64,000 bases of DNA from assembly GCF_014200045.1 (NCBI RefSeq), contig NZ_JACHOV010000001.1, positions 62,001 through 126,000 of the forward strand, read 5' to 3'. The position numbers and the translations under genes were made by a program. The notes beneath the pieces were generated by a model. The model saw only the letters and a list, made by a program, of their open reading frames with translations, was not told the origin of the DNA and did no database searches. The stretch comes from Rhizorhapis suberifaciens. GTDB lineage: Bacteria; Pseudomonadota; Alphaproteobacteria; Sphingomonadales; Sphingomonadaceae. Within the stretch, counting starts at the first letter, position 1, and each line of letters opens with the position of its first letter. This document shows, piece by piece, positions 7,594-63,708 of the stretch.

Positions 7594-7618
7594 AACATTT
7601 CGTTGTTTCATTTGTTCC
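7594..7618 (-). promoter_or_regulatory. Candidate EcfG promoter of nepR-phyP
   Basis: On the minus strand GGAAC (7618-7614) is followed after 16 bases by TGTT (7597-7594). This is the -35 element of the EcfG consensus with the right spacing and one mismatch in the -10 CGTT. It faces nepR, in keeping with the autoregulation usual for this locus. Confidence 0.55.
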
Positions 7619-7754
7619 GCAGTTGTCCGGTTTTTTAGGTTTGTTTGGGACGGGACAAAAGGGTGATCGTGGCGGGGATTGCAAACTTCCTTTCAGCGTT
7701 CCACCTTATGCGTCCCATCAGGGCCCCGTGCCATTTGTGGAGTTCCATCTGATC

Positions 7755-48633: not shown

Positions 48634-48682
48634 ATGGTGAGCCCTGCTGGATTCGAACCAGCGACCTACTGATTAAAAGTCA
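48634..48682. repeat. Left attachment copy: tRNA-Lys 3' half (attL)
   Basis: 49 bases identical to 63632-63680, the 3' half of the intact tRNA-Lys including the CCA end and part of the anticodon arm. The rest of the tRNA is absent here, so it is a displaced fragment left by integration and not a working tRNA. The conserved TGAAATAT flank to its left is shared with the copy at 62793. Confidence 0.88.
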
Positions 48683-49017
48683 ATCTTTTCAATAACTTAC
48701 AACATTCCATATTGCAGTATCTCGTCCGCTAGTCAATGATTTTTCGACTCTTTGGCTGAGCAGTTCGCCTGAGGCCGTTTCATGCTCTTTCACTCAATCT
48801 TGGGCTCCCGATACCCGCTTGGGACCCCAGCGGAAGACCGGCGATTTTCTGGGTATCGGATGATTGGAGAAGGGGCTGGCTGATGGGTGCAATCGCCGGT
48901 CGCCAGTGTCATATCGATCAAAGCGGGTTCTGTCAGGAAAATCCTGCCGCGACCATTTGCATTGAAACGTAGCTCGCGATGATATACATATGAAGATCGT
49001 ATATCATGGAGGTTCGA
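48683..49017. other. Left end of the island, no gene
   Basis: About 335 bases between the attachment copy and vapB. Only an inverted repeat close to vapB is clear. GACCCC/GGTACC-like stretches (for example TTGGGACCCCAGC near 48820) resemble sequence on the far side of the other att copies (63560, 62730) and may be arm-type integrase sites. An open frame on the minus strand from 49254 to 48790 is mostly a shadow of vapB. Confidence 0.4.
48979..49007. promoter_or_regulatory. vapBC operator
   Basis: ATGATATAC (48979-48987) and GTATATCAT (48999-49007) form a perfect 9-base inverted repeat with an 11-base spacer just before vapB. AbrB-type antitoxins bind such repeats to autoregulate. It also overlaps AT-rich sequence that could be the -10 element. 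Confidence 0.65.
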
Positions 49018-49248
49018 ATGCAGGTCGCGAAGTGGGGAAACAGCCTGGCCGTGCGTCTGCCTGCGGCTGTGGTCGAAGCGCTCGATCTTCACGAGGGAGA
49101 CGATATCGAGATACATATCGCCGATGCACGCAGCATGGGCGTGGCTCGGAAGCCCAGCCGGAATGAACTGATCGAACGCTTGCGCGCTTTCCGAGGACGC
49201 ATCCCCTCCGATTTCAAATTCGATCGGGATGCGGCGAATGCCCGGTAG
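49018..49248 (+). CDS. vapB: VapB-type antitoxin (AbrB/MazE fold)
   Basis: A 76-residue DNA-binding antitoxin: the AbrB swapped-hairpin N-terminus MQVAKWGNSLAVRLP and DIEIHIADAR, and a flexible C-terminus (LRAFRGRIPSDFKFDRDAAN) that would hold the toxin. ATG 49018 follows GGAGGTTCGA. It overlaps vapC by eleven bases. An inverted repeat operator is just upstream. Confidence 0.9.
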   Translation: MQVAKWGNSLAVRLPAAVVEALDLHEGDDIEIHIADARSMGVARKPSRNELIERLRAFRGRIPSDFKFDRDAANAR

Positions 49249-49636
49249 CTTCATTGATACAAATATTCTGATCTACCTAGCCGGTTCCGATAGCGGCAAA
49301 GCAGGGAAAGCGGAGACCTTACTCAACGCTGGTGGAACAATCAGCGTTCAGGTGCTCAATGAACTGGCGAATGTCGGCAGGCGAAAGCTGGGCTTTTCCT
49401 GGGATGAAGTGTCTGCGTTCCTTGGAGCCTTACGTGAGCTGTTGAATGTCGTTCCCATGGATGAGGCCGTTCATGATGAAGGACTCCGGATAGCCCAGCG
49501 TTACGGCCTATCGGTTTACGACGGCATGATTGCTGGCGCCGCACTCGGGGCCGGCTGTGAAATCCTGTGGTCCGAAGACATGCATTCGGGATTGGTGATC
49601 GACCATAAGCTGGAGATTCGCAATCCGTTTGCCTGA
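49238..49636 (+). CDS. vapC: VapC-type PIN-domain toxin
   Basis: A 132-residue PIN-domain RNase. Acidic residues of the active site: FIDTNILIYL, the Glu in VLNELANV and YDGMIAGAALGAG (Asp). VapC toxins cleave tRNA or rRNA when not bound by VapB. ATG 49238 (MPGSFIDTN) is chosen over ATG 49229. It belongs to the island and may help to hold it in the cell. Confidence 0.92.
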   Translation: MPGSFIDTNILIYLAGSDSGKAGKAETLLNAGGTISVQVLNELANVGRRKLGFSWDEVSAFLGALRELLNVVPMDEAVHDEGLRIAQRYGLSVYDGMIAGAALGAGCEILWSEDMHSGLVIDHKLEIRNPFA

Positions 49637-49725
49637 TAGACCAAATAGATCGATGATCGATTGAGAAAGGTTTATAAATCATATAATGCGCATATTATGA
49701 TCGATAGAAAGGCTGTCGATCGATC

Positions 49726-50835
49726 ATGCGCTGGAACTGGCAACAACCGGATTGGCCGAATTTCCGCTTCGATGCCGCGCGCCTCCATTCGGCGGAAGCG
49801 CAATTCCTCAAAGGGGCGGGGGTTGTCATTGGCACCTTGCATCATCTGGACGGCGAAGCCCAGCGCGGCTTTGCAATCGAGCTTATCTCGCAGGAGATGG
49901 TCGAGAGTTCAGCGATCGAGGGAGAGGTGCTCGATCGCGCCAGCGTGCAATCCTCGATCGCCAAGCAGCTTGGATTTGCCGTATCCCAGCGCCGCGCGAA
50001 TGCCGCGGAAGCCGGGGCGGCGGAGCTTATGGCTGACCTCTATCGAAGCTACGCCCGGCCGCTGACCGATCGCCAATTGTTTGACTGGCACAAGATGCTG
50101 ATGAACGGCCGCAGGGACATCAACGAGGTCGGCGCGTACCGCGCGCATGCCGATGCGATGCAGATCGTATCCGGTGCGCTCCATGCGCCGCGCGTCCACT
50201 ATGAGGCGCCGCCATCGGATCGTGTGCCCGCCGAGATGCAGGCGTTCATCCAATGGTTCAACGATAGCGCACCGGGAAGCGCCAAGCCCCTTTCGGCGGT
50301 CACGCGTGCCGGGATCGCGCATCTATGGTTTGAATCGATCCATCCGTTTGAAGATGGAAACGGGCGAATTGGGCGGGCGATTGCCGAGAAGGCCCTTGCG
50401 CAAGCTCTGCAAGCTCCAACCCTGACCGCACTTGCCGAAACCATCAATCGACATCGCAAGGCCTATTATGCGGAACTTCAGCGCGCGAGTGCGACCAACG
50501 AGATCGATGCTTGGCTCGGTTGGTTTGACGACATCGTGCTTGAAGCCCAGACTAGAACGATCGCACGTATCCGATTCCTCATAGAAAAGACCCGCATGTT
50601 CGATCACCTTCGAAACCGGATCAACGCGCGGCAGGAGAAGGCGTTATTGCGCATGTTTGCCGAGGGTCCGGACGGCTTCAAAGGCGGGCTCAGTGCGCAC
50701 AACTACCGGACGATCACGGATGCGACATCCGCGACGGCCACCCGCGATCTTTCCGAATTGGTCGATCTGGAAGCCCTCATACGCACAGGCGAACGGCGTT
50801 ATGCGCGCTACCATCTCAACGTGGATATCGGCTAG
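49726..50835 (+). CDS. Fic family protein (AMP-transferase type) with inhibitory helix
   Basis: A 369-residue Fic protein. The catalytic loop HPFEDGNGRIGRA begins at His206, and the inhibitory motif SSAIEG (Ser61-Gly66, class II, N-terminal inhibitory helix) is present upstream, so activity should be kept low until relieved. A C-terminal winged-helix part (about 295-369, RYARYHLNV) follows. Fic enzymes add AMP to proteins such as topoisomerases. It follows vapBC by 90 bases and may be a toxin or a defence effector of the island. Confidence 0.9.
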   Translation: MRWNWQQPDWPNFRFDAARLHSAEAQFLKGAGVVIGTLHHLDGEAQRGFAIELISQEMVESSAIEGEVLDRASVQSSIAKQLGFAVSQRRANAAEAGAAELMADLYRSYARPLTDRQLFDWHKMLMNGRRDINEVGAYRAHADAMQIVSGALHAPRVHYEAPPSDRVPAEMQAFIQWFNDSAPGSAKPLSAVTRAGIAHLWFESIHPFEDGNGRIGRAIAEKALAQALQAPTLTALAETINRHRKAYYAELQRASATNEIDAWLGWFDDIVLEAQTRTIARIRFLIEKTRMFDHLRNRINARQEKALLRMFAEGPDGFKGGLSAHNYRTITDATSATATRDLSELVDLEALIRTGERRYARYHLNVDIG

Positions 50836-51049
50836 GCTGGTAGCTGAGCGTCATTCAATCGCATGAGACCCAAAATCGAGAAACAGTGTCGCGACGCTTG
50901 GTCCGAGCATCGGTACGAAAAATCGATCTAAACCACCCCCCGGGTTGTCAGGGCATATTCTTAGATTGCGCCGCGTTGCTCTTTCCTGATCCATGTCCTC
51001 CGTAGATCAGGAATTCCTTTGAGATTGGCTGATTTCCGTGATTATTGAA
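50836..51049. other. Intergenic region between fic and int
   Basis: About 215 bases without a gene. It has no repeats that stand out apart from the palindrome GGAATTCC at 51010 and the inverted repeat that starts at 51050. It is the expected place for the integrase promoter. Confidence 0.4.
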
Positions 51050-51071
51050 GTGTCATTCGAAAGGATGACAC
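51050..51071. promoter_or_regulatory. Inverted repeat at the int start
   Basis: GTGTCAT (51050-51056) and ATGACAC (51065-51071) form a perfect 7-base inverted repeat that ends at the int start codon. It includes the AAGG ribosome binding site (51061-51064), so it may be an operator or an RNA hairpin that limits integrase translation. Confidence 0.5.
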
Positions 51072-52226
51072 ATGAAGAAAGCCCTGACTGCAAAGACGCT
51101 CGATGCCCTCAAGGGCAAAGAAAAACGATATGACGTCCATGATCTTCACTGTCCCGGCCTGAGCGTTCGGGTTTCGGAGAACGGGCGAAAGGTCTTCTCC
51201 GTCAAGTTCCGATTTGGCCTTGAACAGAAGCGGGTCACGCTTGGCGTATATCCGCGCCTGTCGTTGGCAACGGCCCGCGAGAAGGCAATCGATTTACTCC
51301 GGCAGGCCGATGAAGGGATCGACCCAACCAAGCGACGGCGCAGACCCGACATGAAGGTCGAGACCGTCTGCCGCGAGTTCATCCGCTTATATGCGCAGAC
51401 CCGCAACAAGAGTTGGCGCGAAGCCGAGCGCATACTGGAACAGGAATTCATAAGCGCGCATGGTCCGCGCGATATCCGCGAGATCAAGCGGTACGACATA
51501 TTGGAATTGATGGACGCAGCCATCGAGCGGGGAGCAGGCTATCAGGCCAACCGCATCCTCTCGCATATCCGCAAGCTGTTCAACTGGTGTATCGAACGCG
51601 GGATTCTCGAAGCCAGCCCGATCGCCGGCGTGAAACCTCCCACCAAGGAGGTGTCCCGCGAGCGTGTGTTGAACGATGATGAGTTGGTTCGCATTCTGCG
51701 GGCATGCCGCAACGAGGTCTATCCGTTTCGGCAGATCGTTCCCATGCTGCTGGCGACAGCACAACGCCGGGGCGAACTGACTGAGATGCGCTGGAGCGAA
51801 ATCGATCTTGAGGAGAAGCTTTGGGTGATCCCGGCCGAGCGCGCCAAGAACGGCAAGAAGCATTATGTGCCGCTCAGCACCTTCGCCCTCGAAATCCTTA
51901 ATGAGGTTCCGCGCTTCCTCGATTGCGATTACGTCTTCACGACCACGCGCCAAACGCCTGTCAGTGGCTATTCAAAGTGGCTGCGTCGCCTCTCCGCCGA
52001 ATCCGAAACCTCCGACTGGCGCTATCATGACTTGCGCCGAACCGCTGCGACCAACCTTGCCAAGTTGGGGGTTACGCAAGCTGTGACCGAGAAGATTCTA
52101 AATCATGTCAGCGGCATCGTGTCAGGCGTTGCGGCGGTGTATAACCGGCATAATTATGCCGATGAAATGCGCGAGGCATTGGAGATGTGGGGGCAGCGGC
52201 TCGCGGAATTGAGCCCAATCGTATAG
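51072..52226 (+). CDS. int: P4-type tyrosine recombinase/integrase
   Basis: A 384-residue integrase with the DUF4102 arm-binding N-terminus (LTAKTLDALKG, DVHDLHCPGLSVRVSENG), a core-binding SAM-like domain and the catalytic domain: Arg232 in AQRRGEL, HDLRRTAATNLA (His and Arg), and the nucleophile in VYNRHNY. It should recombine at the tRNA-Lys 3' end, giving the att copies at both sides. It lies 2.4 kb from attL, which is near the end of the element. Confidence 0.93.
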   Translation: MKKALTAKTLDALKGKEKRYDVHDLHCPGLSVRVSENGRKVFSVKFRFGLEQKRVTLGVYPRLSLATAREKAIDLLRQADEGIDPTKRRRRPDMKVETVCREFIRLYAQTRNKSWREAERILEQEFISAHGPRDIREIKRYDILELMDAAIERGAGYQANRILSHIRKLFNWCIERGILEASPIAGVKPPTKEVSRERVLNDDELVRILRACRNEVYPFRQIVPMLLATAQRRGELTEMRWSEIDLEEKLWVIPAERAKNGKKHYVPLSTFALEILNEVPRFLDCDYVFTTTRQTPVSGYSKWLRRLSAESETSDWRYHDLRRTAATNLAKLGVTQAVTEKILNHVSGIVSGVAAVYNRHNYADEMREALEMWGQRLAELSPIV

Positions 52227-52311
52227 GATTTTCCGAGCAACCGACCGGCGGACTCGCGCCAGCCCGGAGAGTGGGGGCATTGGTCACGACTGCACGACAG
52301 TAAGGGGCATC

Positions 52312-52950
52312 ATGTATCTGCCATGGCCGGAGATGTTTGGTGACGCAGCGATGCGCAAGCTGTCGGCGCATCTTGGGTTAGACGATAAGATCGAGGCGGC
52401 GCGGCGCGATTTCCTAGCGGTTGGTGAACGCATTCGCGCGATTATCGATGCCACGCCGTCCAGCTTCGACCATGGCCCTGACGATATGTCTCTCTCCAAG
52501 CGGGCGCGGTGGCTGCAACAGCAGATACTCAACCCGGCTGAGGCATTGCGCAACGCCTTGGCTGATGATCCGAAATTCGCGCAGTACCCGGAAAATCACA
52601 CATCGGCTTTGGCGGCAGATGAGCGGTATTCATTAGCTGAGAGCCTCGCGCGGCTGGAACGGTTCGCGGCCGATTTGCGCGACGATCTTACCGCCCGTTC
52701 CGAGTCCCGGCATTTCAGCCACAATATTGAGATGCGCCGCGAATTCCTCTTCTGGATCGCGCAGGTGGTTCGCCGCCACGCGCCCAATCTCGACGTTCAG
52801 CGATCTTATACCGGTGTCGATGACGGGAACGGCAAAGGCAATGCCTCACCCTTCTTCGCGGCAATGAAACTCGCCTATGTCGAGATTACCCGTGAGGCCA
52901 AACCGCAGCTTGAGGACCATTTCAAGGAATTGGTCAGAATGGGCGTGTGA
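52312..52950 (+). CDS. Hypothetical island protein
   Basis: A 212-residue soluble, mostly helical protein (start MYLPWPEMFGDAAMRKL; later SLAESLARLERFAADLRDD and ITREAKPQLEDHFKEL). AAGGGG stands just before ATG 52312. No family is recognised; no signal peptide, membrane segment or cysteine motif is visible. It lies between int and alpA, in the part of satellites that often carries accessory genes. Confidence 0.6.
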   Translation: MYLPWPEMFGDAAMRKLSAHLGLDDKIEAARRDFLAVGERIRAIIDATPSSFDHGPDDMSLSKRARWLQQQILNPAEALRNALADDPKFAQYPENHTSALAADERYSLAESLARLERFAADLRDDLTARSESRHFSHNIEMRREFLFWIAQVVRRHAPNLDVQRSYTGVDDGNGKGNASPFFAAMKLAYVEITREAKPQLEDHFKELVRMGV

Positions 52951-53041
52951 CGCTTCGGCCCGGATTGGGCTGAGATCGTCAAGACCTTCGATGGCAAGCC
53001 GGCTCAGGATGCGGCACAAACATGCACGACGTCGGAGTTTG

Positions 53042-53055
53042 AGGGTGCGCACCCT
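53042..53055. promoter_or_regulatory. 14-base palindrome upstream of alpA
   Basis: AGGGTGCGCACCCT is a perfect palindrome 29 bases before the AlpA start, followed by TTTATC. It may be an operator for AlpA or, with the T-run, a weak terminator of the preceding gene. Confidence 0.5.
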
Positions 53056-53083
53056 TTATCATTGAAGATGAAGGGATAATGTC

Positions 53084-53305
53084 ATGTCAGAACTGCCTGT
53101 TCGAGCGGCGGATCGCCGCTTGCTATACACGCGTAAGCATTTGGTGCGCCTTGGGATCAATCTGTCCAATTCCACCATGTTGCGGCTGGAAGCGGCCGGG
53201 AAATTCCCCAAGCGCGTCCGCATCGGAGCGCATTCGGTCGCCTGGCTGGCCTCCGAAATTCATACCCATATCGAAGCGCTTGCCGCGTTGCGGGAGGTGG
53301 CGTGA
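53084..53305 (+). CDS. alpA: AlpA-family regulator/excisionase-like protein
   Basis: A 73-residue helix-turn-helix protein of the AlpA/Vis type: RRLLYTRKHLVRLGINLSNSTMLRLEAAGKFPKRVRIG in brief LVRLGINLSNSTMLRLEAAG, then WLASEIHTHIE. AlpA proteins of P4 and satellites control integrase expression and excision. AAGGGA precedes ATG 53084. Its stop overlaps the next gene by four bases, which starts the replication operon. Confidence 0.85.
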   Translation: MSELPVRAADRRLLYTRKHLVRLGINLSNSTMLRLEAAGKFPKRVRIGAHSVAWLASEIHTHIEALAALREVA

Positions 53306-53583
53306 TGATCTTCGATTACAGGGGTGAAAAGATCGGCTTCGGTGAGCCGCTTATCAACAACGTGGTGCACATCGACTTCGAAGTAATCTCCACGTGTCGA
53401 TGCTGTGGAACCGAGATCGAGAAGACCGAAGAACGGATGGGGTTCGAAACCTATCTTCCGTTTGAGGACATACGGCAATGGTTGGGGACCACCGGGGCCA
53501 TAACGCGCATCATGGATTTGGTTCAGGTGGAGGCGAAGCGGGTAGGAGCGGTTCGTGATGATTCCGAGGGAGGCGACGCATGA
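53302..53583 (+). CDS. Small hypothetical protein of the replication operon
   Basis: A 93-residue protein (MMIFDYRGEKIGFGEPL) with a CRCCGTEIEK cysteine group near residue 32 that might bind zinc, and FEDIRQWLGTT. It overlaps alpA and the next gene by four bases each, so it is part of one translational unit with the primase-polymerase. No family recognised. Confidence 0.65.
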   Translation: MMIFDYRGEKIGFGEPLINNVVHIDFEVISTCRCCGTEIEKTEERMGFETYLPFEDIRQWLGTTGAITRIMDLVQVEAKRVGAVRDDSEGGDA

Positions 53584-53729
53584 CGCGATTCCTTGGATAT
53601 CTCTATCTTCATGCGCCAGACCCGGACAATCGCGGGCAATATGTGACTTATCGGATCGCGGTCGAAGAAACTGGCGACACAAGCTATAACGCTGGCGAAC
53701 CCGAGGAGGCGGACGATGAGCAAGATTGA
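53580..53729 (+). CDS. Very small hypothetical protein of the replication operon
   Basis: A 49-residue ORF (MTRFLGYLYLHAPDPDNRG, YVTYRIAVEE, acidic C-terminus) that starts inside the end of the previous gene (ATGA overlap) and ends 14 bases into the primase-polymerase gene. Short, acidic and without known motifs. The strict overlap chain supports real translation, but no function can be given. Confidence 0.6.
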   Translation: MTRFLGYLYLHAPDPDNRGQYVTYRIAVEETGDTSYNAGEPEEADDEQD

Positions 53730-55443
53730 GCTCACGCCTCTGGCCAAACGTAAATTCGGGGCGGCGCAAGCCGCCCTGAAAGCATCCATGCGTGTAGTCG
53801 CGCTACAACCCCGCTCCAAGGTGCCTGACACGCGCTTTTGCGCCAGCGGGGCGGATAGCGCGACCGAGGAAGCCTTAATCGTCAAGCAATGGCTGAGCGA
53901 AGATCCGTCGATCAACCTTGGAGCTGTGGCGAAGGCATCGCCGGTTCTCATTATTGACGTGGACGGACCGGAAGGAGAGGCGGCGCTGAAACGTTTCGGG
54001 CCGCTGCCTCCCACGCGCGAAACGATCACCCGCAATGGACGGCACCTCTATTTCCACCACGCTGGGCGGATCAGGGGAAGCAAGATCGGCTTGGAGCCCA
54101 AGCTGGACATCATTGCGTCCGGTTATGTGCTGCTCCCGGAGTCCGCACATCCCGAAGGCGGGCGTTACCGATCGGATGAACCGGCAGCACCTATTGCTAA
54201 GTTGCCGGGGCGGGTGCTCAATGCCATTCTGGCGCGGAGCAATTCCCCTAAGCGCAAGCAGGCAAAAGCTGGTGAGGGGATTCTTCGCCGAGGGTCGCGC
54301 GATAACCGCCTGACCAGCTTAGCCGGGCCATTCAGACGACAGGGCTTCGATGATGCGGTGATCGCCACCGCGCTCCATGCGGTGAACGCTGACCATTGCA
54401 GTCCGCCTTTGCCCGACCAGGACATCGAACGGATCGCATCCAGCGTCATGCGCTATGATCCCGCCGACGATGAACTGTTCGAGACCATGGCGAATGTGAC
54501 GCCGCGTGATGTGGATTTCCTGTGGGAGCCCTATTTCGTGCGCGGGGCGATTAACCTGCTCGAAGGTGATCCCAATGTCGGCAAGACCTACCTGCTGTGC
54601 GAACTGGCGGCGGCGATCTCAAGTGGACGGGCCTTGCCGGGACAGAAGAAGGGCGGGGCGGCCAATGTCCTCTTCATGAGCGCCGAGGATGATCCCGAAA
54701 CCACGCTTGTGCGGCGTCTCACCCGGATGAACGCCGATTTGTTGCGCATCACCTTTTCCAAGAAGTTCTTCCGATTGGAGGAGGAGGCGCTGGGCTGGAT
54801 CGAGAAACACATTGTCGCACAAAAGGCGGCGGTGCTCATCCTCGACCCACTGCTGGCCTACATGCAAGGTGGTATCGACATGAACAAGGCGAACGAAACC
54901 CGCCCATTCATGGCCCGGCTTGCGGAACTGGCGAAAGCAACCAATGTCACGGTGATTGCCTTGCGCCATTTGACCAAGGGAGAGAAGGACAAGGCGATTT
55001 TTCGCGGGCTGGGCTCGGTCGACATCACGGCGGCTGCCCGTTCTGCGGTACTTATCGGCCAGCACCCGGAAAATGACGACCTCAAGGTCATGGTCCACAT
55101 CAAGCACAACCTGTCCGAACGGGGTGCCTCGCAGATCTATGCGCTGGTAGACGGCGACCGCGAGAAGCGGATCATTCCGGTGGTCGAGTGGCAAGGCGAG
55201 TGTGAGCTAGGGCCTGAGGACTTCCTCAAATCCGTTGAGAAGGTCGGACGGCCCGATACCGAAGTCAAAGCCGCCATCGAGTTCCTCGAAACGGCGCTGG
55301 CTAAGGGCGAACGCCGGATCGCGGAAGTCATAGCCGACGGAGAAAAACGCTCGCATTCGGCCCGTACCGTGCGGCGCGCGGCCAAGTCGCTGGGCGTCAT
55401 CAAGGCCGGACAACGCTGGAAACTGGCCAATATTATCCTATAG
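53716..55443 (+). CDS. Primase-polymerase/helicase replication protein of the island
   Basis: A 575-residue protein with an N-terminal bifunctional primase-polymerase domain (LIIDVDGPEGEAAL with the DxD metal site, GRHLYFHH, DIIASGYVLLPES) and a RepA-like AAA helicase (Walker A EGDPNVGKTYLL, Walker B LILDPLLAYMQ, LRHLTKGEKD). It can prime and unwind for autonomous replication, the role of P4 alpha or PICI pri-rep proteins. It is the last gene of the alpA operon. ATG 53716 overlaps the previous small gene. Confidence 0.88.
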   Translation: MSKIELTPLAKRKFGAAQAALKASMRVVALQPRSKVPDTRFCASGADSATEEALIVKQWLSEDPSINLGAVAKASPVLIIDVDGPEGEAALKRFGPLPPTRETITRNGRHLYFHHAGRIRGSKIGLEPKLDIIASGYVLLPESAHPEGGRYRSDEPAAPIAKLPGRVLNAILARSNSPKRKQAKAGEGILRRGSRDNRLTSLAGPFRRQGFDDAVIATALHAVNADHCSPPLPDQDIERIASSVMRYDPADDELFETMANVTPRDVDFLWEPYFVRGAINLLEGDPNVGKTYLLCELAAAISSGRALPGQKKGGAANVLFMSAEDDPETTLVRRLTRMNADLLRITFSKKFFRLEEEALGWIEKHIVAQKAAVLILDPLLAYMQGGIDMNKANETRPFMARLAELAKATNVTVIALRHLTKGEKDKAIFRGLGSVDITAAARSAVLIGQHPENDDLKVMVHIKHNLSERGASQIYALVDGDREKRIIPVVEWQGECELGPEDFLKSVEKVGRPDTEVKAAIEFLETALAKGERRIAEVIADGEKRSHSARTVRRAAKSLGVIKAGQRWKLANIIL

Positions 55444-55466
55444 GGGAGTTCTGGCCAGTTTTTCGC

Positions 55467-55745
55467 TCAACGGTCGGCGGTAAGGGCCTTTCGCGCTTCA
55501 TCCAGCGCCTTTGACCCTGCCGCCCACTGCCACGGTTGGCGGGCGACATGCTCCTTGCCAAGGTTTGGATATTGCCGCGTCTGTTTGGCCGCAAGGCGCA
55601 GCAGCATCCGAGCGTCGCGCGGTGTTATCTTCATTTCTCGGGCAAGCTGGTCGAGCGTGACCACGGCAGGCTTGCCTGCGTCGGTTTTCGCCTCGGTAAT
55701 CGGAGCATTGGGCTTCTCGGTTTCGGTCGTGGTCATGTCGGTCAT
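55467..55745 (-). CDS. Hypothetical island protein
   Basis: A 92-residue protein (MTDMTTTETEKPNAPIT low-complexity N-terminus, then VTLDQLAREMKITPRDARMLLRLA, a helix-turn-helix-like stretch). It is read leftward, convergent with the primase-polymerase gene. It may be a small DNA-binding protein, but no family is recognised. The start may also be the second ATG. Confidence 0.55.
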   Translation of the reverse strand: MTDMTTTETEKPNAPITEAKTDAGKPAVVTLDQLAREMKITPRDARMLLRLAAKQTRQYPNLGKEHVARQPWQWAAGSKALDEARKALTADR

Positions 55746-55824
55746 CTCCTTTGGTTGGGACCGACATTTCCATTAAGACGGGTTCGGAAGGCTTGTCAGG
55801 GTAAATCCCAGAAGGAACAGGAAA

Positions 55825-56295
55825 ATGCCGGTTTGGGTCTCAACTATTGGTTTTGTCATTGCGCCGGTCACGACCTTGATCGCTGTTTGGATGACCTCCC
55901 ATTTTGCGTGGAGGCGATCGCAAAATGAGAAGCTCTGGGACCGGAAAGCGAACGCCTATGGCGCAATCCTCGAAGCCCTCCACGAAATGGATGCGTGGTT
56001 CACTGTCAGCATGAACGATGCGATGTTGAGGCGTGACCCCTCGGACGAAATTGTTGAAGAGCGCGGTGCCAGCTACCGCAGCGCCCGAAAGATTCTTCGG
56101 GGCGTTGTCGGGCGAGAGGTCTGGTTGCTCGATCCTGCCGTCAAAGAACGAGCCGAGGCAATGAACAAGGTGTTGGACGACCACTATGACGGCTGGTTTG
56201 AAGTTCTGGACGCCGGGAGCTATGCGGTCGCCCAAGCGATAAAGGAGATTACCGCCTTGGCCACGAGGGAGCTGAAAACGGAACGAACCCACTGA
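55825..56295 (+). CDS. Membrane-anchored hypothetical protein
   Basis: A 156-residue protein with an N-terminal membrane helix (VWVSTIGFVIAPVTTLIAVW) and a helical C-terminus (NEKLWDRKANAYGAILEALHEMDAWF in parts; RASYRSARKILRG). AGGAACAGG stands upstream of ATG 55825. Single helix plus cytosolic coiled region fits a small anchored island protein. Function unknown. Confidence 0.65.
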   Translation: MPVWVSTIGFVIAPVTTLIAVWMTSHFAWRRSQNEKLWDRKANAYGAILEALHEMDAWFTVSMNDAMLRRDPSDEIVEERGASYRSARKILRGVVGREVWLLDPAVKERAEAMNKVLDDHYDGWFEVLDAGSYAVAQAIKEITALATRELKTERTH

Positions 56296-56416
56296 TTTCC
56301 CTGACCTCGTTCAAGAAAATCCGGGCGACATACCCCCGACGTCCGGCCCCGACCCACTGATTGTAAATGAGGCCATCGTCCTGCCCAAACAGCCGGAAAT
56401 CCGAATCTCGAACCCG

Positions 56417-57034
56417 TTAACGGGCGTCGTCGGGTATCCGTCGGGCACCAGACCGATCAGTAAGATTGCGCAGCCGATCAAGGCATAGCGTCTTCGCTTC
56501 TAACTCCGCCTGCCGGAGTCGTTGCACCGTGTCGATCCGGTTGCGTCCGCGAGGGATCGGCTGACTTCCCGACCCAGACAGGCGGCTGCGTAGCTTGGCG
56601 GCCTTGCGACGGGCACGGGAACATTCATTCATCCCCTGCACCGCATAGCTTAGCCGTTGCGCCTCGCGTGAGCCGAACCGGCCTCCGGCATAGTAGATCA
56701 CTTCGCAGCGCCGAGCGATGAACGGGCAGATGAAGTAGCAGCGATGGCCCCCGAACGGCGACGGCACCATTTCGATAGCGACGTGCTGTTTGATGGTGCC
56801 ACCGGGCATATCGGCGTCGATCGCCATGACGCCGCCGCGTTCAATGTCGCTGAGATCGATACGAAGGCGACTGAATGCGCTTAGATCGCCAATCAACCAG
56901 TGCACCGTGTTACATGTGCATTCGCCGGGTCGAACTACGCCCAGCCGCCGCAAAGCGCGAATGTCGAGTGCCAACGCGTCCTCGATGTTTCCGATGTTCG
57001 TTGAACGACGCGCGCCTGATCCGATCCCGCCCAT
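56417..57034 (-). CDS. Hypothetical protein of a mobile-element family (MGGIGSG type)
   Basis: A 205-residue protein with the start MGGIGSGARRSTNIGN, seen in many prophage and ICE proteins, a Cys group in RRCEVIYYAG and CTCNTVHWLIG, and a basic C-terminus. A zinc-binding fold is possible. The start ATG 57034 follows GGAGGTGACA; an upstream ATG at 57061 is less likely. No known function. Confidence 0.68.
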   Translation of the reverse strand: MGGIGSGARRSTNIGNIEDALALDIRALRRLGVVRPGECTCNTVHWLIGDLSAFSRLRIDLSDIERGGVMAIDADMPGGTIKQHVAIEMVPSPFGGHRCYFICPFIARRCEVIYYAGGRFGSREAQRLSYAVQGMNECSRARRKAAKLRSRLSGSGSQPIPRGRNRIDTVQRLRQAELEAKTLCLDRLRNLTDRSGARRIPDDAR

Positions 57035-57472
57035 TGTCACCTCCATGATTGATGGCGGCATTATACATCCGAAGGCGCTGGGTCTCAGGCCCAGACTTCG
57101 GCTCTGCGGACGAAGTCAATGCGTCTGCGATCCCGTTCTCTGCGTCGCTTTAGCTGGCTCTTCTCCGAAATCCTGCGTCTTGGGGCAGGTTGTCGTTGAG
57201 TTACAGGCGTTTCTTTCTCATACAGGCATCGGAACCGCCACGCACGGTTTCCGGGGCGTGGTAACCCCGAAAGTGAACGGTTGGATCGCCCGATGCGGTC
57301 CACACATCCTTGACCCTTATGGTCGGGGAGCCTGCGGCGTATGTCCAGGGCTTCCCAGCCTAAAGGTCGTAGGGACCGATTCACTTCGGTTTACCAACTC
57401 CCCGATCACCAGGATCAGGTGTGAAGTCGAACAGCGGGGGCGTACCGCCATCGACTTCCGGGGAGAAAGGGA
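57035..57472. other. Gene-poor stretch of the island
   Basis: About 440 bases. Open frames here on both strands (57085-57384 minus, and part of 56790-57581 plus) have no recognisable features and look like chance frames in GC-rich sequence. Nothing else is visible apart from GC-rich blocks. Confidence 0.4.
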
Positions 57473-57670
57473 ATGCCGAGAGGCACCCGACACACCCTTA
57501 CGGGAACGTTGCGCTGGACGCGCCTTGGCTATGCGCTGGAAATGGACGACGGCGGCATGTGGAGGCTGGACCTCGGCATGATCTGGCGCATTAGGCGCCA
57601 TGTTGATCGGCGCATTACTGTGGAAGGCGCACGCTCCGGGTTCGATCTGCTGGACGTGCATCGGCTGTGA
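57473..57670 (+). CDS. DUF5818-like small protein
   Basis: A 65-residue protein beginning MPRGTRHTLTGTLRWTRLGYAL and ending VTVEGARSGFDLLDVHRL in the likeness of DUF5818 proteins common in sphingomonads and their mobile elements (here VTVEGARSGFDLLDV is ITVEGARSGFDLLDV). AGAAAGGGA precedes ATG 57473. The compact beta-rich layout suggests an OB-like or SH3-like fold. Function unknown. Confidence 0.7.
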   Translation: MPRGTRHTLTGTLRWTRLGYALEMDDGGMWRLDLGMIWRIRRHVDRRITVEGARSGFDLLDVHRL

Positions 57671-57876
57671 GCGGCTGAAACCGCGCCTTGACTCACAGTA
57701 GTACTCTTTGCAGTGTTCTGGCTGTTGCCGCATCTACGATCAAGCGCTTGCAGATGCGCAGCGAAATGGTCATTGGGTACCCTGTATCTCTAGAGGATTC
57801 CTACCCCGACCAGATTGACATCGCGATCTGAGTTATCTTCATCGAACACGACACATAAATCGGAAAATGGCCAAGT
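57671..57876. other. Upstream region of the defence block
   Basis: About 200 bases before the DUF262 gene with a lower GC content than the flanks. It probably holds the promoter for the four-gene block, but no element is clear enough to name. Confidence 0.35.
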
Positions 57877-58998
57877 ATGACACAAAGGAGGAAGAAGGCA
57901 TCCCTCGCTCCCGAGCGGATCGAAGAAGCTGAGCGGCAAATCATCGATTATTCTAAGACGGTAAAGTTTACTGTTACAGAGTATTCGTTCGAGTTTATCG
58001 TGCAGAAGCTTAATGCCGAACGATATTACGTACCGGAATATCAACGGGAATTGATCTGGACATCGACTAAAAAGTCGAAGTTCATCGAATCAGTGCTCAT
58101 GGGTTTGCCGATCCCTTTCGTGTTCTTTTGGCAGGACAAGGATGGTCGGATGGAGATCGTCGACGGTTCGCAGCGTCTGCGTACGATTCGTGATTTCATG
58201 GCGGACAAATTCGCCTTGCGTGATCTGGAAACCATCCCGGCCCTCAACGGCTTTCGGTTCTCTGATCTGCCGCCATCACGCCAACTGAAGTTCGGTGAGA
58301 TTCCGATCCGCGTCATCATTCTGGACAACACCACGGATGCGGAAACGCGGACGGAGATGTTTGCACGCATCAACACCGGCGGGACGACCGCTAACGATGC
58401 CGAAATCCGGAGAGGGAGCCTTCCCGGGCCATTCATGGATCTCGTGATCGAACTGGCGAACGACGAGACGTTCGTAGAGCTTACGCCGATCAGTGCGGAA
58501 CTGGTCAACAAACGTGAGCGCGAGGAATTGGTGACCCGCTTCTTCGCGTATCTGAACAGCTTCGATCCGGCTGCGAACGACGGGGACGGCGACATCGTGT
58601 CGTACAGAGAGGAACCGCGCCGGTTTTTCTTCCAGTTCGTAAAAGAAATGAACGACCGGATCACGCTCGAACAGGAGAATGGTCAGCAGTCGCAGACGAT
58701 TGCCGCGATGCGCACAGACTTCGCGAATGCCCTGGGGTTCATTCACTCGGTCTCTCCGAACGGATTCACCAAATCCGAAACCGGCAAACAAGTGCCACGG
58801 GTTAGGTTTGAGTCCATCGCCGTTGGTTCTGCGCTTGCATTGCGAGCTGATTCCACGGTTCCGGATCGTGCGACGGATATGACGCCGTTGCTCGAATCAC
58901 TCGATTTCCTGGAGGCTACGAAATCGGATGCGGCGAATGTGAAAAGCAAGCTGCTCAATCGCATAAGGCTCACTCGAAATTGGTTGTTGCAGCAATGA
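57877..58998 (+). CDS. DUF262 domain protein (GmrSD N-terminal-like)
   Basis: A 373-residue protein with the DUF262 (ParB/Srx-like) motifs: YYVPEYQRELIW, FIESVLMGLPIPFVFF and IVDGSQRLRTI. In the type IV enzyme GmrSD the same domain binds or hydrolyses nucleotide and is joined to a DUF1524 HNH nuclease; here no HNH part is seen (no HxxP motif), so the nuclease may be supplied by the HEPN protein next door. ATGA overlap with that gene shows coupling. It is the first gene of the defence block. Confidence 0.85.
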   Translation: MTQRRKKASLAPERIEEAERQIIDYSKTVKFTVTEYSFEFIVQKLNAERYYVPEYQRELIWTSTKKSKFIESVLMGLPIPFVFFWQDKDGRMEIVDGSQRLRTIRDFMADKFALRDLETIPALNGFRFSDLPPSRQLKFGEIPIRVIILDNTTDAETRTEMFARINTGGTTANDAEIRRGSLPGPFMDLVIELANDETFVELTPISAELVNKREREELVTRFFAYLNSFDPAANDGDGDIVSYREEPRRFFFQFVKEMNDRITLEQENGQQSQTIAAMRTDFANALGFIHSVSPNGFTKSETGKQVPRVRFESIAVGSALALRADSTVPDRATDMTPLLESLDFLEATKSDAANVKSKLLNRIRLTRNWLLQQ

Positions 58999-59711
58999 GG
59001 GAGGTTCTCGACTACTTGGAGGAGCGGAGATCGGAGTTCGAGCGGCATTTGTTCGTAGCTCGCCTGCTGGAGGCTCGCGTAGATGACGCGACCGGTGCGG
59101 ACACGGCCCAAGTCGAGGTACGGCATGTCAATACTTTGAAGTCTGGCCTGCTCATTCATCTGTACAACATTGTCGAAGCCGTCACGACCCGGACCATGGA
59201 TATCGTCGGGCAGACGATCGTCACCGAGAAACCGAAACTGTGGAAAGAGGTCGTGCTCAGGGAATGGGTCCGCGCTGCCATATGGGACGGCGAGGATCGC
59301 TTGGGGGAAGGTGCTGTCACAAGGCTCGCCGGCATCAGCAGCGTCCTTGCGTCCGGGGAAGCGCCGAGCGCCTTCAAGATAAAGGGCGAGCCGGGAAGCT
59401 GGGACGATGAAGCTATCAAGAAGGTGGCAGAACGTCTCGGTTGCCGACTTGTTCTCTCCAATGCTATCAAGCGGGCAGCGTTTGAAAAAGTTTACCGGAA
59501 CGAGATGACCGCAATGAAGTATCTGGCGAGCCGTCGAAATGCGATCGCCCATGGAGCGACAACCTTCGAGGAGGGGGCTCACGATCATACCCTGGACGAA
59601 ATCTCAGCCTTGGGTGGGCGGATTCTGCCGTTCCTTAAAGCCGTTACAGAGTCCTACGGGGCATTCCTCGACTCGAAAGCTTATCTCGCGCAACAACAGG
59701 CCGCAGCGTGA
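58995..59711 (+). CDS. HEPN nuclease-like protein (MAE_28990/MAE_18760 type)
   Basis: A 238-residue helical protein with the HEPN catalytic motif R-x4-H in SRRNAIAHGAT near residue 180 and an acidic N-terminus (DYLEERRSEFERHLFVARLL). HEPN proteins of this type are RNases in defence and toxin systems. It overlaps DUF262 by four bases and the methyltransferase by four bases, so the products are probably made in fixed amounts. Its target is unknown. Confidence 0.8.
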   Translation: MREVLDYLEERRSEFERHLFVARLLEARVDDATGADTAQVEVRHVNTLKSGLLIHLYNIVEAVTTRTMDIVGQTIVTEKPKLWKEVVLREWVRAAIWDGEDRLGEGAVTRLAGISSVLASGEAPSAFKIKGEPGSWDDEAIKKVAERLGCRLVLSNAIKRAAFEKVYRNEMTAMKYLASRRNAIAHGATTFEEGAHDHTLDEISALGGRILPFLKAVTESYGAFLDSKAYLAQQQAAA

Positions 59712-60757
59712 ATACTCAGCAGATCGTTGCAGTCGACCTCTTTTGTGGGGTTGGGGGGTTGACGCACGGCCTAACCAAAGCTGGCGTGAAGGTCGAACTC
59801 GGCGTCGATCTTGACCCGGCCTGCCGCTATCCGATGGAAAAAAATAACGCGGCGAAGTTTCTCGAAGCCGACGTTGCAAACTTGTTACCTTCCGACGTGC
59901 GGATGGCGTTCGGCGATGCCCAGATCACGCTGCTGGCGGGTTGTGCACCGTGTCAGCCGTTCTCATCGTATGCGCAAGCGGCTAAGCGCGCTACACCGCA
60001 TGAAGATTGGGAGCTTCTCAAGTCGTTCTCCAAGCTCGTGCTGGCGGTACGGCCGACGCTGGTGACGATGGAAAATGTCCCGCCGCTGTTGAAGCAGCAG
60101 ATATTCAAGGATTTCGTCGCAGACTTGCACGGAGCTGGATACGATCTCGATTTCAAGGTGGTGGACGGACGCGGCATCGGTTTGCCGCAACGCCGGCAGC
60201 GTCTAGTGCTGGTTGCATCACTGCTCGGTCCGATCGTCATTCCTGACGCGGACAAGCCGCAAGCAACCGTACGGCAAACTATTTCCGAGCTTCCTCCGCT
60301 GGCGGCTGGATCGTCCGACCTTGAGGATCCGCTTCATGCCGCCGCCTCGCTGAGTGATCTCAATCTCGCTCGAATCCGCCACTCGAAGCCGGGTGGTACA
60401 TGGCGCGATTGGCCCAACGAACTCGTTGCGGCCTGCCACACGCGACCGACCGGTAGTACCTTTCCTTCTGTCTATGGGCGCATGGAATGGGATGCGCCCG
60501 CACCGACGATGACCACACAATGCTACGGCTTTGGCAACGGCCGGTTCGGACATCCTGAGCAGGATCGGGCGATCAGTCTTCGAGAGGCAGCGATGCTACA
60601 AAGCTTCCCGAAAAACTACGCCTTCGTGCCGAAGGGAGCATCGATCAATTTCAGCACGCTCGGACGCATGATCGGCAACGCGGTGCCGGTCCTCTTGGGC
60701 GAGTTCATAGGCGGGATTCTGGTCGATCACGTGAAGGCTTTCGGCTCGGAGCGTTGA
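59708..60757 (+). CDS. dcm: DNA (cytosine-5) methyltransferase
   Basis: A 349-residue C5 methyltransferase: motif I DLFCGVGGLTHGL, motif IV with the nucleophile Cys in GCAPCQPFSSY, motif VI ENVPPL, motif VIII QRRQRLVL, and motif X GNAVP. The target recognition region lies around residues 215-280. The recognition site cannot be read from sequence, but Vsr next to it suggests a site like CCWGG, or another site where deamination makes a T:G mismatch. GTG 59708 overlaps the HEPN stop. Confidence 0.95.
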   Translation: MNTQQIVAVDLFCGVGGLTHGLTKAGVKVELGVDLDPACRYPMEKNNAAKFLEADVANLLPSDVRMAFGDAQITLLAGCAPCQPFSSYAQAAKRATPHEDWELLKSFSKLVLAVRPTLVTMENVPPLLKQQIFKDFVADLHGAGYDLDFKVVDGRGIGLPQRRQRLVLVASLLGPIVIPDADKPQATVRQTISELPPLAAGSSDLEDPLHAAASLSDLNLARIRHSKPGGTWRDWPNELVAACHTRPTGSTFPSVYGRMEWDAPAPTMTTQCYGFGNGRFGHPEQDRAISLREAAMLQSFPKNYAFVPKGASINFSTLGRMIGNAVPVLLGEFIGGILVDHVKAFGSER

Positions 60758-61194
60758 CCACCGATCCGCCAGTCTCCCCACAACGTTCGGCCCTCATGTC
60801 TCGTGTAGGGCCGAAGGATACCAAACCAGAGATGTTGGTGCGACGGACGTTGCATCGCTTAGGATACCGGTTCCGCCTCCATCAAGCTGATCTGCACGGA
60901 CGGCCAGACATTGTATTGCCGAGATACAGGACAGTGATATTCGTCCATGGTTGTTTCTGGCATCGACATCCAGGCTGCTCGAAAGCGAGCACACCAAAGA
61001 CCAGAGAGGATTTCTGGCAGGACAAGTTCGCAACCAATATCGCTCGCGACCGTCGCAATGAAGATGCACTGCGTGCAGACGGTTGGCAGGTCTTGGTCGT
61101 CTGGGAATGCGAGACGAGGAACCCGGTGAAATTGGATTCCAAAGTGCTAGTAGCGCTAGCACCATCCACTACAGGGAATTGTCAAACCGAATAG
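60754..61194 (+). CDS. vsr: Very short patch repair endonuclease
   Basis: A 146-residue Vsr nuclease. Motifs: MSRVGPKDTKPEMLVRR, GRPDIVLP (catalytic Asp), VHGCFWHRH (zinc and catalytic His) and VWECE. It nicks at T:G mismatches created by deamination of 5-methylcytosine made by the upstream methyltransferase. TTG 60754 overlaps the dcm stop, so its expression is coupled. It is convergent with the endonuclease gene. Confidence 0.95.
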   Translation: MTTDPPVSPQRSALMSRVGPKDTKPEMLVRRTLHRLGYRFRLHQADLHGRPDIVLPRYRTVIFVHGCFWHRHPGCSKASTPKTREDFWQDKFATNIARDRRNEDALRADGWQVLVVWECETRNPVKLDSKVLVALAPSTTGNCQTE

Positions 61195-61377
61195 GTGACT
61201 ACCAGACCCTAAATTAAATCACAGTCTCAAATGTCAATGTGTCTGCGGAACATGGTCTCTGAGGCTTAATCTTTGCCGCTTTATATCCCATCGTTAGCAT
61301 TATGATATGGATCAATAATTAAATTGCCAATAATGCTATTGATACGCCAAAGATTATTCGTTCAGCGAGTCTGGTGC
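61195..61377. other. AT-rich intergenic region between vsr and endonuclease gene
   Basis: About 180 bases, clearly richer in A and T than the rest of the window (for example ATCAATAATTAAATTGCCAA). It lies between convergent genes. No strong hairpin is seen; it may reflect a foreign origin of the block. Confidence 0.4.
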
Positions 61378-62632
61378 TTAGCTAATCTCCATCTCGAAAG
61401 GGCGCAAGTCCAAGGGAGAGGATTTCGGAACTGATATAGCGAGGCTTTCGCTATACTCTACCAAGTGGATATGCCAATAGGTGCTGCCAGGCTTGTTGCT
61501 TGTTGTGTGTAGCAAGGGCAGGAGTGGGCCCATTGCGGAATGTGGGACTGCATAGGCAGTATCGCGGTCCATGCACCCAAGGACGAAATAGCCACGACCG
61601 GCCTCGGCCAAGAAGGTTTCCCACTGCGGATGATAAGCATACCAATAAGGCGCTTGGTTTTTGCCGGTGTAGCGCTTGGACATCGAACAAGCTGCGCGGA
61701 CATCGCGTTGCGCGTTCCAATAGAGCGCACGGCTCTTGCGGACTAGACTGGTTCCCTCCCGGTGGCTCAACGCCGCGATCACATCCTCGCGCTTAGCTTG
61801 CAAAAGTTCCGCGTCGGTGAAGTGCCAGGTCCCCTTGGTGCGGACAGGCCGTGACATTGTCGAACCAATAACGGGTGGGACCAACGTGTTCGCAGATTGC
61901 CGTTCCGCTGCGTCCGCCGACTCCTCGACCTCAGGATCAGGCTCTTCCTCGACGTCTGTTGCGGTGGTGAACATTACGTCGACCATGCGGTCGAGACGCG
62001 TATACTCTATTGGGGTGAGCAGGCTACGCATCTTCAGCCCCGTTTCAAGCGCTTCGGTATTTTCTTTGAGCAGGACGAGCTTGATGAGCGCCTCGACGCT
62101 TATCAGGCGAATATCCCAGGCATGCCGCGACCCGCGAATCTGCGCCTCAAGCTCACCCGTATCCTGCCGGCCCACCACGATTAGGATGGACGACTCCGAT
62201 GAGAGCTTGCCAGCCTCGGCAAGCTTCGCGCGATAGACAGCCAGCGTGTCAAGGGAAAGCCTATAGGCATCGGTGGTCTTCACCTCGACGATGAGCGTAT
62301 GATCCTCAGGCGACAGCCATAGTCCATCGAACCCGATCTTGCCTTGGGTGCCGTGATAGCGACCATTGATCACTTCATAGTCGAGGCGACGGCCTAGCTC
62401 GTTGACCAGGTCTTGTAGAACCAGACCGCTCTTTTGGAAAGGAACCGAAAGGCAATGGTGGACATAATCGGCGATCTTTTCTGTTCCCTATCCTTCCTAG
62501 ATATTCCCTCAGTTCGGCAGAGCAGCTAGTATCGTCTTTCAACATGCCATCACCGGCAGTCGAGACTACTTGTTCTATGCTGAATTTCGCGACACTTTCG
62601 GGTGCTGTCTCGAAGATAGAAATCAGTGGCAT
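61378..62632 (-). pseudogene. PD-(D/E)XK restriction endonuclease-like gene, broken by a one-base frameshift
   Basis: Two minus-strand frames join to one protein. The N-terminal part (MPLISIFETAPESV to LGRIG, 62632 to about 62487) and the C-terminal part (KIADYVHHCL onward, then the catalytic core GFDGLWLS and IVEVKTTDAYR) fit end to end if one base of CCC at 62486-62488 is removed, giving LGRIGTEKIADYVHH and a 417-residue protein. The D...E-V-K pattern is the nuclease core. It is convergent with dcm/vsr and is the likely partner nuclease. Either the gene is truly dead, or the sequence has an error, or expression uses frameshifting. Confidence 0.75.
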
Positions 62633-62792
62633 CTTAAAATCTTAGCGTGTGGATGAGGTGACGCAACTCCCATTACGCCTGCGAACTTCAAATTTTAGAC
62701 AATTGAAGGCAAACTCTGATGCCCCATCGGTACCCCAACAGCCTTTTAGGGCATCGCGTACCACTTTAATCACGTATAAGTAATTGAAATAT

Positions 62793-62838
62793 ATGGTGAG
62801 CCCTGCTGGATTCGAACCAGCGACCTACTGATTAAAAG
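62793..62838. repeat. Middle attachment copy of tRNA-Lys 3' half
   Basis: 46 bases identical to the 3' half of tRNA-Lys (as at 48634 and 63632), with the same TGAAATAT flank as the left copy. It ends at AAAAG, three bases earlier than the others. It is the right boundary of the 14.2-kb element or the left boundary of the small remnant. Confidence 0.88.
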
Positions 62839-62865
62839 GCCGACCCGAAGACCAATAGCGCTCCT

Positions 62866-63174
62866 TCAGCCTTCAAGTAGGCTTTCAAAATCTCTGCCGC
62901 CATAGAAGATGCCGACCACCACCACGTCGGTTTCTTCGACTACGAAAGCGATCGTCACCCGGCGGCGCCAGGCGATTGTACGCAGGCCTGATCGGAGATC
63001 GTCTCGCGGCGTTCCTCGTTTGGGGAACTCGCTCAGACCATCGATATGGTCGATGATCCCGTCCGTGAAGCGTGAAGCGGTCTCGACGTCAGCGGCGGCC
63101 GAGATGTAGGCATGGAGACGGTCGAGCTGATCGCGGGCTTCTGGTGTGAAGACGATGCGATAGGACATCGTCAT
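62866..63174 (-). CDS. parE: ParE-type toxin (RelE/ParE fold)
   Basis: A 102-residue toxin starting MTMSYRIVFTPEARDQLDRLHAYI, with FPKRGTPRDDLRSGLRTIAW (here as GTPRDDLRSGLR) and the C-terminal VVGIFYGGRDFESLL; these are typical of ParE, which poisons gyrase in related pairs. ATG 63174 or ATG 63168 may be the start; the longer frame to 63297 is a shadow of parD. It is downstream of parD with 14 bases between. Confidence 0.9.
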   Translation of the reverse strand: MTMSYRIVFTPEARDQLDRLHAYISAAADVETASRFTDGIIDHIDGLSEFPKRGTPRDDLRSGLRTIAWRRRVTIAFVVEETDVVVVGIFYGGRDFESLLEG

Positions 63175-63188
63175 TCTTCTGGTCTCAC

Positions 63189-63449
63189 TCAGCCGTTCCG
63201 CTTGCCGATGGTCGCCCGGACTTCTTCCAACGGGATGCCCTTCGACGGATCGGCACGATAGGCGTCGTAGGAAGGGAGAGCCTGCTGGGTCAGCCAATCA
63301 TTCAGGGCACGTTCGCGAGCGTTGAGCGCGCGAAGACCTTCCCGGATGACCTCGCTTTCGCTTGCATATTCTCCGGACGCCACCTTGGCCCGAACAAGTG
63401 CTGCCATCTCATTAGGCAACGTCACGCTGAATTGTTGAGTCGAACGCAT
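63189..63449 (-). CDS. parD: ParD-type antitoxin (ribbon-helix-helix)
   Basis: An 86-residue antitoxin: ribbon-helix-helix N-terminus MRSTQQFSVTLPNEMAALVRAKV, the helix GEYASESEVIREGLRALN, and a C-terminus (LPSYDAYRADPSKGIP) that contacts ParE. It should repress its own promoter at repeats just upstream (63468-63495) and neutralise ParE. AGGAGGTTCC precedes ATG 63449. Confidence 0.92.
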   Translation of the reverse strand: MRSTQQFSVTLPNEMAALVRAKVASGEYASESEVIREGLRALNARERALNDWLTQQALPSYDAYRADPSKGIPLEEVRATIGKRNG

Positions 63450-63467
63450 CGGAACCTCCTACATCAG

Positions 63468-63495
63468 TAGGATTTAATCCTATTCGCATAGGATT
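63468..63495. promoter_or_regulatory. parD operator
   Basis: TAGGATT-T-AATCCTA (63468-63482) is a perfect palindrome, and a third half-site TAGGATT follows at 63489-63495. They lie 20-45 bases before the parD start, the expected place for ParD binding. Confidence 0.68.
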
Positions 63496-63632
63496 TCAAT
63501 GGAGGTGTGCCCAAGGGCAATCTTGAGAGAGATGCCCGTATTTTCGAGCGAAAAGTCTGGTACCCCAGTGATACCCCGCCGGTACTCACGGCTATGCCGG
63601 GGTCCCAAACCAACGCTAAATCATTGAAAACA

Positions 63633-63708
63633 TGGTGAGCCCTGCTGGATTCGAACCAGCGACCTACTGATTAAAAGTCAGTTGCTCTACCGACTGAGCT
63701 AAGGGCCC
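63633..63708 (-). tRNA. tRNA-Lys (UUU)
   Basis: An intact 76-base tRNA gene on the minus strand with anticodon TTT (loop CTTTTAA), T arm GGTTCGAATCC and encoded CCA. The acceptor stem pairs GGGCCCT with AGGGCTC. Its 3' half is the integration site for the island elements and lies at the left end of the gene. Confidence 0.97.

Follow-up and report, generated by a model that had tools for sequence, protein, structure and literature searches.

Satellite-like islands integrated at tRNA-Lys genes of Sphingomonadales and a putative self-recognizing antisense RNA that they carry

The 64,000-nucleotide stretch of the Rhizorhapis suberifaciens genome analyzed here (the window; contig NZ_JACHOV010000001.1, positions 62,001 to 126,000) contains a genomic island bounded by copies of the 3' end of tRNA-Lys(TTT), with an integrase-AlpA-primase core, a structured leader RNA and a block of defense genes (Table 1). 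An earlier note on this DNA had placed a P4- or PICI-like satellite core at positions 51072–55443. The genes were indeed found there, integrase, AlpA and primase-polymerase by Pfam and PHROGs matches and the two small genes from the sequence, and the chain from alpA through the 93- and 49-amino-acid (aa) frames to the primase-polymerase gene overlaps by 4, 4 and 14 bases, as read off the sequence (alpA stop at 53305 against the GTG at 53302; 53583 against the ATG at 53580; 53729 against the primase-polymerase start at 53716). As the extent of the element, the interval proved too narrow: the backbone runs to approximately position 57670, and the island is delimited as 48634–62838 because repeats of the tRNA-Lys 3' end sit at 48634 and 62793. 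These two exact 46-bp copies lie 14,159 bp apart and have a stretch of 50 bp in common; a third exact copy starts at 63632, at the intact tRNA gene.

Table 1. Features of the island and its borders, in positions of the window
Feature	Position	Strand	Remarks
Left attachment repeat, 46-bp tRNA-Lys(TTT) 3'-end copy	48634–48679	.	identity stops in anticodon loop
MazE-type antitoxin (49006–49248) and PIN toxin (49229–49636)	49006–49636	+	
Fic protein	49726–50835	+	DUF4172 + Fic; PADLOC SoFic
Tyrosine integrase	51072–52226	+	Arm-DNA-bind_3, Phage_int_M, Phage_integrase; best E 1e-24 (Pfam; PHROGs agrees)
u212	52312–52950	+	function not assigned; 86-nt gap after int
AlpA-type regulator/excisionase	53084–53305	+	Pfam E 1.2e-9; PHROGs
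93-aa protein, GTG start	53302–53583	+	
49-aa open reading frame, ATG start	53580–53729	+	overlaps both neighbors; sequence
Primase-polymerase + AAA_25 helicase-like protein	53716–55443	+	Prim-Pol + PriCT_1 + AAA_25 (Pfam; PHROGs)
u92, conserved backbone gene	55467–55745	-	predicted small helix-turn-helix-like fold, domain pLDDT ~80
Two internal integrase core-like sites, CCCACTGATT at 56287 and GACCCACTGATTGTAAATGAG at 56351–56371	56287–56371	+	
u214, conserved backbone gene (MGGIGSG...)	56417–57061	-	function not assigned
Putative promoter TTGAGT-17-CATACA	57196–57224	+	conserved in RNA islands
Putative antisense RNA target (P4 seqA-like), GGGGCGTGGTAACCCCGAAAGTGAACGGT	57253–57281	+	
C4-like three-way-junction putative antisense RNA	57321–57407	+	5' GGU at basal stem; specificity loop + tail 57374–57403
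Conserved hairpin	57423–57458	+	directly before next ribosome-binding site
65-aa protein, conserved gene downstream of RNA	57473–57670	+	no NCBIfam model
DUF262/GmrSD_N protein	57877–58998	+	defense/restriction cargo block 57877–61194
HEPN MAE_28990	58980–59711	+	defense/restriction cargo
C5 cytosine methylase	59708–60757	+	defense/restriction cargo
Vsr	60754–61194	+	defense/restriction cargo
331-aa protein, D...EVK nuclease-like motif	61378–62373	-	sequence; no family match
Right attachment repeat, 14,159-bp island	62793–62838	.	
parDE pair	62866–63449	-	inside 839-bp segment flanked by two attachment repeats
Intact tRNA-Lys(TTT) with third repeat	63632–63708	-	gene 63633–63708; 46-bp copy 63632–63677

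The primase-polymerase was searched against 299, and u214 against 348, Sphingomonadales-family genomes, with named contigs added, these genome sets being samples. The search, of a kind that the earlier note had proposed for integrase-alpA-primase sets in other sphingomonads, yielded about 20 related loci arranged as (Fic)–int–u212–AlpA–small gene–primase–u92 (reverse)–u214 (reverse)–RNA or XRE–cargo–tRNA-Lys, so that the gene order in the window is not due to chance. In most islands the gene after int is u212, and in several relatives the two genes overlap. Apart from a few exceptions (L025 is at tRNA-Thr), the islands use tRNA-Lys(TTT) or tRNA-Lys(CTT), and they measure 10.7 to 20.0 kb between attachment repeats. 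The locus is a member of a family of tRNA-Lys-integrated, satellite-like mobile islands of Sphingomonadales. The replication module is swapped freely among islands: between the window island and that of genome G089, the primase-polymerases are 93% identical but the integrases only 55%. A second family member in the R. suberifaciens genome (contig C6; L105/L113/L115) occupies tRNA-Lys(CTT), spans 19.5 kb and carries an XRE repressor; in the primase-polymerase position it encodes a protein that matches TIGR01613, 'phage/plasmid primase, P4 family' (G000:C6; 214 bits, cut-off 108.7). Further integrase genes lie just before this second island. Relatives on a Nostoc contig (L021) and a betaproteobacterial contig (L020) were suspected contamination and were left out of the evidence on host range. 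When an empty tRNA-Lys site was sought in relatives via the left flank, no clean one was found, the flanks not being conserved beside the tRNA.

The DNA upstream of u214 is 83–89% identical between islands whose u214 proteins are approximately 42% identical. A structured leader RNA, located at 57196–57472 and hence outside the interval 51072–55443, resembles the C4 and CI antisense RNAs of P1 and P4. Covariation supports the three-way fold, in which 97.9% of cells are paired and 21 are double-change cells. The specificity loop is hypervariable, yet almost all of 40 distinct copies retain its complementarity to the target upstream in the same copy: loop plus tail and target are paired in 98.6% of cells across 13 islands (37 double-change cells) and in 94.0% across the 40 copies (124 double-change cells). 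The mean duplex energy is -31.3 kcal/mol for self pairs versus -19.8 for non-self pairs, and the own target ranked first for 31 of the 40 antisense RNAs by this measure. No shuffle matched the observed values, either for the fold (0 of 500 as high) or for the duplex energy (0 of 20,000 permutations as low), counts that are not probabilities because the RNA sequences are related by descent; the slid control, which retains this relatedness, gave a loop-target covariation of at most 0.056, versus 0.351 for the 40 copies in register.

Against Rfam, the leader RNA remained below threshold for every family, with repeated weak matches at the same position to C4 (RF01695; 21.5 bits versus a gathering threshold of 45), isrK and sRNA-Xcc1 (RF02221; 27.8 of 53 bits in the islands and, at best, 37.6 of 53 elsewhere). 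RNase P cleaves C4 RNA at GGW, and the a' loop of C4 determines which target is recognized (PMC5320573). The island RNA is similar to the C4 of P1 and P7 in its three stems (a basal stem and two hairpins), variable specificity loop and 5' GGU, and differs in that its target lies upstream on the same transcript and in its alphaproteobacterial hosts, which are outside the list of C4 taxa in the same paper; no relevant papers linking C4 RNA to Alphaproteobacteria were found in the open-access literature. The CI RNA of P4 has two pairing partners, seqA on its upstream side and seqC on its downstream side (PMC4825925), and the island RNA with its upstream target is likened to it by structure and logic rather than by sequence homology. 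Collectively, these features point to an uncatalogued, self-recognizing antisense RNA that resembles the P4 dormancy switch. For the conserved non-coding block, a role as replication origin or cos site was also considered and was set aside, rather than refuted, since a promoter lies ahead of the block and both the fold and the target pairing show covariation at the RNA level.

The same pairing could be read differently, namely, as an attenuator switch in which loop and target pair in cis in answer to a signal, instead of an immunity RNA that acts in trans. Both elements lie on one transcript, RNAalifold merges them in one long helix, and covariation alone fits cis or trans pairing equally. We nevertheless consider the attenuator somewhat unlikely: the hypervariable loop is set in a fixed frame, the mature RNA, with GGU at its 5' end, has a fold that is conserved as a separate unit, its relatives C4 and CI are trans-acting, and the RNA is exchanged for the gene of a trans-acting repressor.

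This exchange is mutually exclusive across the family: 13 islands carry the RNA without an XRE gene, 6 carry an XRE gene without the RNA, and none carries both, with the XRE repressor-like gene occupying the position of the RNA in all 6 loci. Most of the XRE copies are 90–96% identical, so that the replacement reflects few events rather than six; the copies sit on at least 2 different u214 backbones. Downstream of the RNA, the islands encode either the small conserved protein (57473–57670 in the window) or a variable small gene, and in G089, the XRE island compared, the same small gene and the repressor gene are transcribed in divergent directions. We infer that the RNA and the XRE repressor serve the same role.

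Beyond the islands, our model of this RNA (R1) matched 86 of the 348 family genomes, in many cases through the core alone. The RNA was also found in regions that resemble integrative and conjugative elements (ICEs) and contain DUF3363, RPA and RovC/DUF2285 genes, on 182 plasmid records, 152 of these typed as conjugative, and on six IMG/VR contigs, one of which (L174) includes a terminase gene. Given this distribution, the RNA is a general module of mobile elements, and it was rejected as a marker of phage satellites, being common on conjugative plasmids and in ICE-like regions. On the terminase contig, two copies (7424–7701 and 10320–10617) have loops of different specificity. In a set of plasmid hits (H41–H60, loci L180–L183) from Rhizobium, Agrobacterium, Paracoccus and Afipia, the leader RNA lies ahead of genes for helix-turn-helix regulators or a DUF2285 protein, or ahead of hypothetical genes.

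All islands with defined ends contain GACCC(A/G)CTGAT between u92 and u214, with an imperfect inverted half after it, and 20 such integrase core-like sites were counted in island interiors on the plus strand versus 0.24 expected on both strands from base composition. The sixth base of the internal site tracks the tRNA (A in all 5 Lys(TTT) islands, G in all 8 Lys(CTT) islands), and this match to the isoacceptor suggests that the cognate integrase does bind at the internal site, which may be used for regulation, cargo exchange or multimer resolution. As to the flanking genes, the predicted structure of u92 produced no significant Foldseek match, and that of u214 was of low confidence (predicted local distance difference test score, pLDDT, of 54) and was left unused. 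A conserved promoter-like sequence, CTGACA-N17-TTAAT on the minus strand, precedes u92 at 55745–55815 and in relatives, and recurs before another small gene in several of them.

The cargo of the family consists mostly of restriction-modification and other defense families, no mobilization family being among the top cargo families, and the window island likewise carries restriction and defense genes, in agreement with the defense block mentioned in the earlier note. The Fic gene adjoins int in 5 islands, with 70–73% identity, and the 331-aa nuclease-like protein is a possible partner of the C5 methylase. The 65-aa protein is one that we take to be DUF5818-like, although NCBIfam gives no model for it. 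Beside the main island, between its right repeat and the tRNA-Lys gene, the 839-bp parDE segment (62839–63631) is apparently a second, tandem (mini-)element or a remnant.

We consider a phage satellite to be the best single explanation of the island, unproven and with roughly an even chance of being correct. The integrase-AlpA-primase core, the attachment sites in tRNA, the length of 14.2 kb, the defense cargo and the recurrence in sphingomonads all speak for it, and no structural or conjugation genes were found in the island, where the genes that were scanned matched no relaxase, portal, terminase or capsid family. PICMIs of Vibrionaceae require int, iolg, alpA and prim for transfer, and int, alpA and prim are mandatory in the published model (PMC10803314). 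These three are co-localized in the window island too, an assessment based on Pfam domain and order and not on homology with PICMI proteins. The order int–gene–alpA–small gene–primase is shared, with u212 in the position of iolg and the 93-aa protein in that of up1, and so are the absence of capsid-remodeling genes, a defense gene aboard and a size below that of a phage genome. Unlike PICMIs, the island family adds u92, u214 and the C4-like RNA or XRE switch. With P4-like satellites, the family shares the integrase-AlpA-primase core at a tRNA and, in the C6 island only, a P4-family primase, the window copy being a Prim-Pol/AAA_25 protein and not alpha.

Several observations weigh against a satellite. 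Neither a helper phage nor a packaging site (cos or pac) nor a capsid or capsid-redirection gene was found for the island, a cos site being searchable only when a helper is known. The earlier satellite reading is therefore supported in part, and membership in P4, PICI or PICMI was left unassigned. In Pfam and PHROGs scans, none of psu, sid, delta, terS and ppi was seen among the island genes, the first three setting the island apart from P4-like satellites. The island DNA had no match in 50,697 phage records except through the RNA, and no relatives of u92 and u214 were found in IMG/VR. The host genome has a single HK97-type capsid gene (G000:C7:71501-72364; PF05065 was the one capsid family searched), which probably belongs to a gene transfer agent rather than a helper prophage: strong PF05065 matches of nearly equal score are present in 11 of 12 host genomes, and because the gene has equal counterparts in 10 of the 11 other hosts, no helper prophage was identified in the island's own genome. 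PICMIs integrate next to fis, as opposed to tRNA-Lys, and are approximately 6.7 kb long versus 14,159 bp in the window and 10.7–20.0 kb in the family. Furthermore, the RNA precedes a small gene and cargo, not, as in P4, the primase operon, and no consistent second target, seqC-like or other, was found elsewhere in each island, including the vicinity of the alpA-primase operon. Finally, since the RNA is shared with conjugative plasmids and ICE-like regions, it does not in itself point to phage mobilization. No relevant papers linking satellites to sphingomonads were found in the open-access literature.

The sharing of the RNA leader module with ICE-like regions and the 152 conjugative plasmids also speaks for a rival explanation, under which the island is an integrative mobilizable element that possesses its own origin of transfer, borrows the transfer machinery of an ICE or a conjugative plasmid and uses the primase only for replication after transfer. 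Such elements resemble the island in having an integrase, an AlpA-type factor, a replication protein, cargo and an expected dependence on a helper, and relaxase genes are present elsewhere in 7 of the 12 host genomes, three of them in the window's own genome. However, the island contains no relaxase or recognizable mobilization gene: a PF03432 search of the 12 host genomes found no match inside any island, other relaxase families being covered by the Pfam scans only. Given also that the AlpA-primase order is typical of satellites and that one gene of the family is a P4-type primase, we consider mobilizable elements unlikely.

The capsid gene resembling that of gene transfer agents, found in all but one of the host genomes examined, is compatible with yet another scenario, in which the locus is a defense island that no longer moves by itself and is inherited vertically, spreading by general transduction, gene transfer agents or recombination between tRNA flanks. 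The split integrase frame in some relatives (L022, L029) and the lack of a resident helper fit this scenario. By contrast, int, AlpA and primase are intact in the window, the attachment repeats are near-identical, and the exchange of modules between distant genera (compare the primase-polymerase and integrase identities above) implies recent movement, so that an immobile island appears distinctly unlikely.

Under the satellite reading, the integrase would free the island as a circle, aided by AlpA and perhaps u212 as excision factors; the primase module would replicate this circle, and the island would spread in the particles or through the conjugation machinery of another element, for which a tailed phage is the likeliest candidate. 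Between transfers, the restriction and defense cargo would benefit the host. In the quiet state, the leader transcript from the putative promoter would yield the C4/CI-type antisense RNA, which RNase P probably releases by cutting at the conserved 5' GGU and which would pair in trans with the target approximately 70 nt upstream in new leader transcripts and shut down the downstream gene or genes. As loop and target change together, each island would recognize only its own kind, and such recognition would define immunity groups; in six islands, the XRE repressor gene would take over this role at the same position. In its broadest form, to which we assign slightly less than an even chance, the proposal is that the RNA belongs to a large and uncatalogued family of antisense RNAs that confer self-specific immunity on mobile elements of Alphaproteobacteria (on satellite-like islands and ICE-like elements, on conjugative plasmids and on some prophages). 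Each copy would have its own target and loop, would be exchangeable with a protein repressor and would sort the elements into immunity groups, and the tRNA-Lys islands of sphingomonads would be helper-dependent satellites equipped with such an RNA.

To our knowledge, complete PICMI-like satellites have been reported only in Vibrio. If the islands described here are satellites, they form a family that is broad among sphingomonads, shares the PICMI core and combines exchangeable replication modules with defense cargo; it would extend small satellites to another bacterial class and offer a tractable system. The RNA, for its part, opens to direct testing the old question of whether mobile DNA in general uses antisense immunity of the P4/P1 type as an exchangeable switch, and whether such immunity sorts elements into mutually excluding groups in the manner of plasmid incompatibility.

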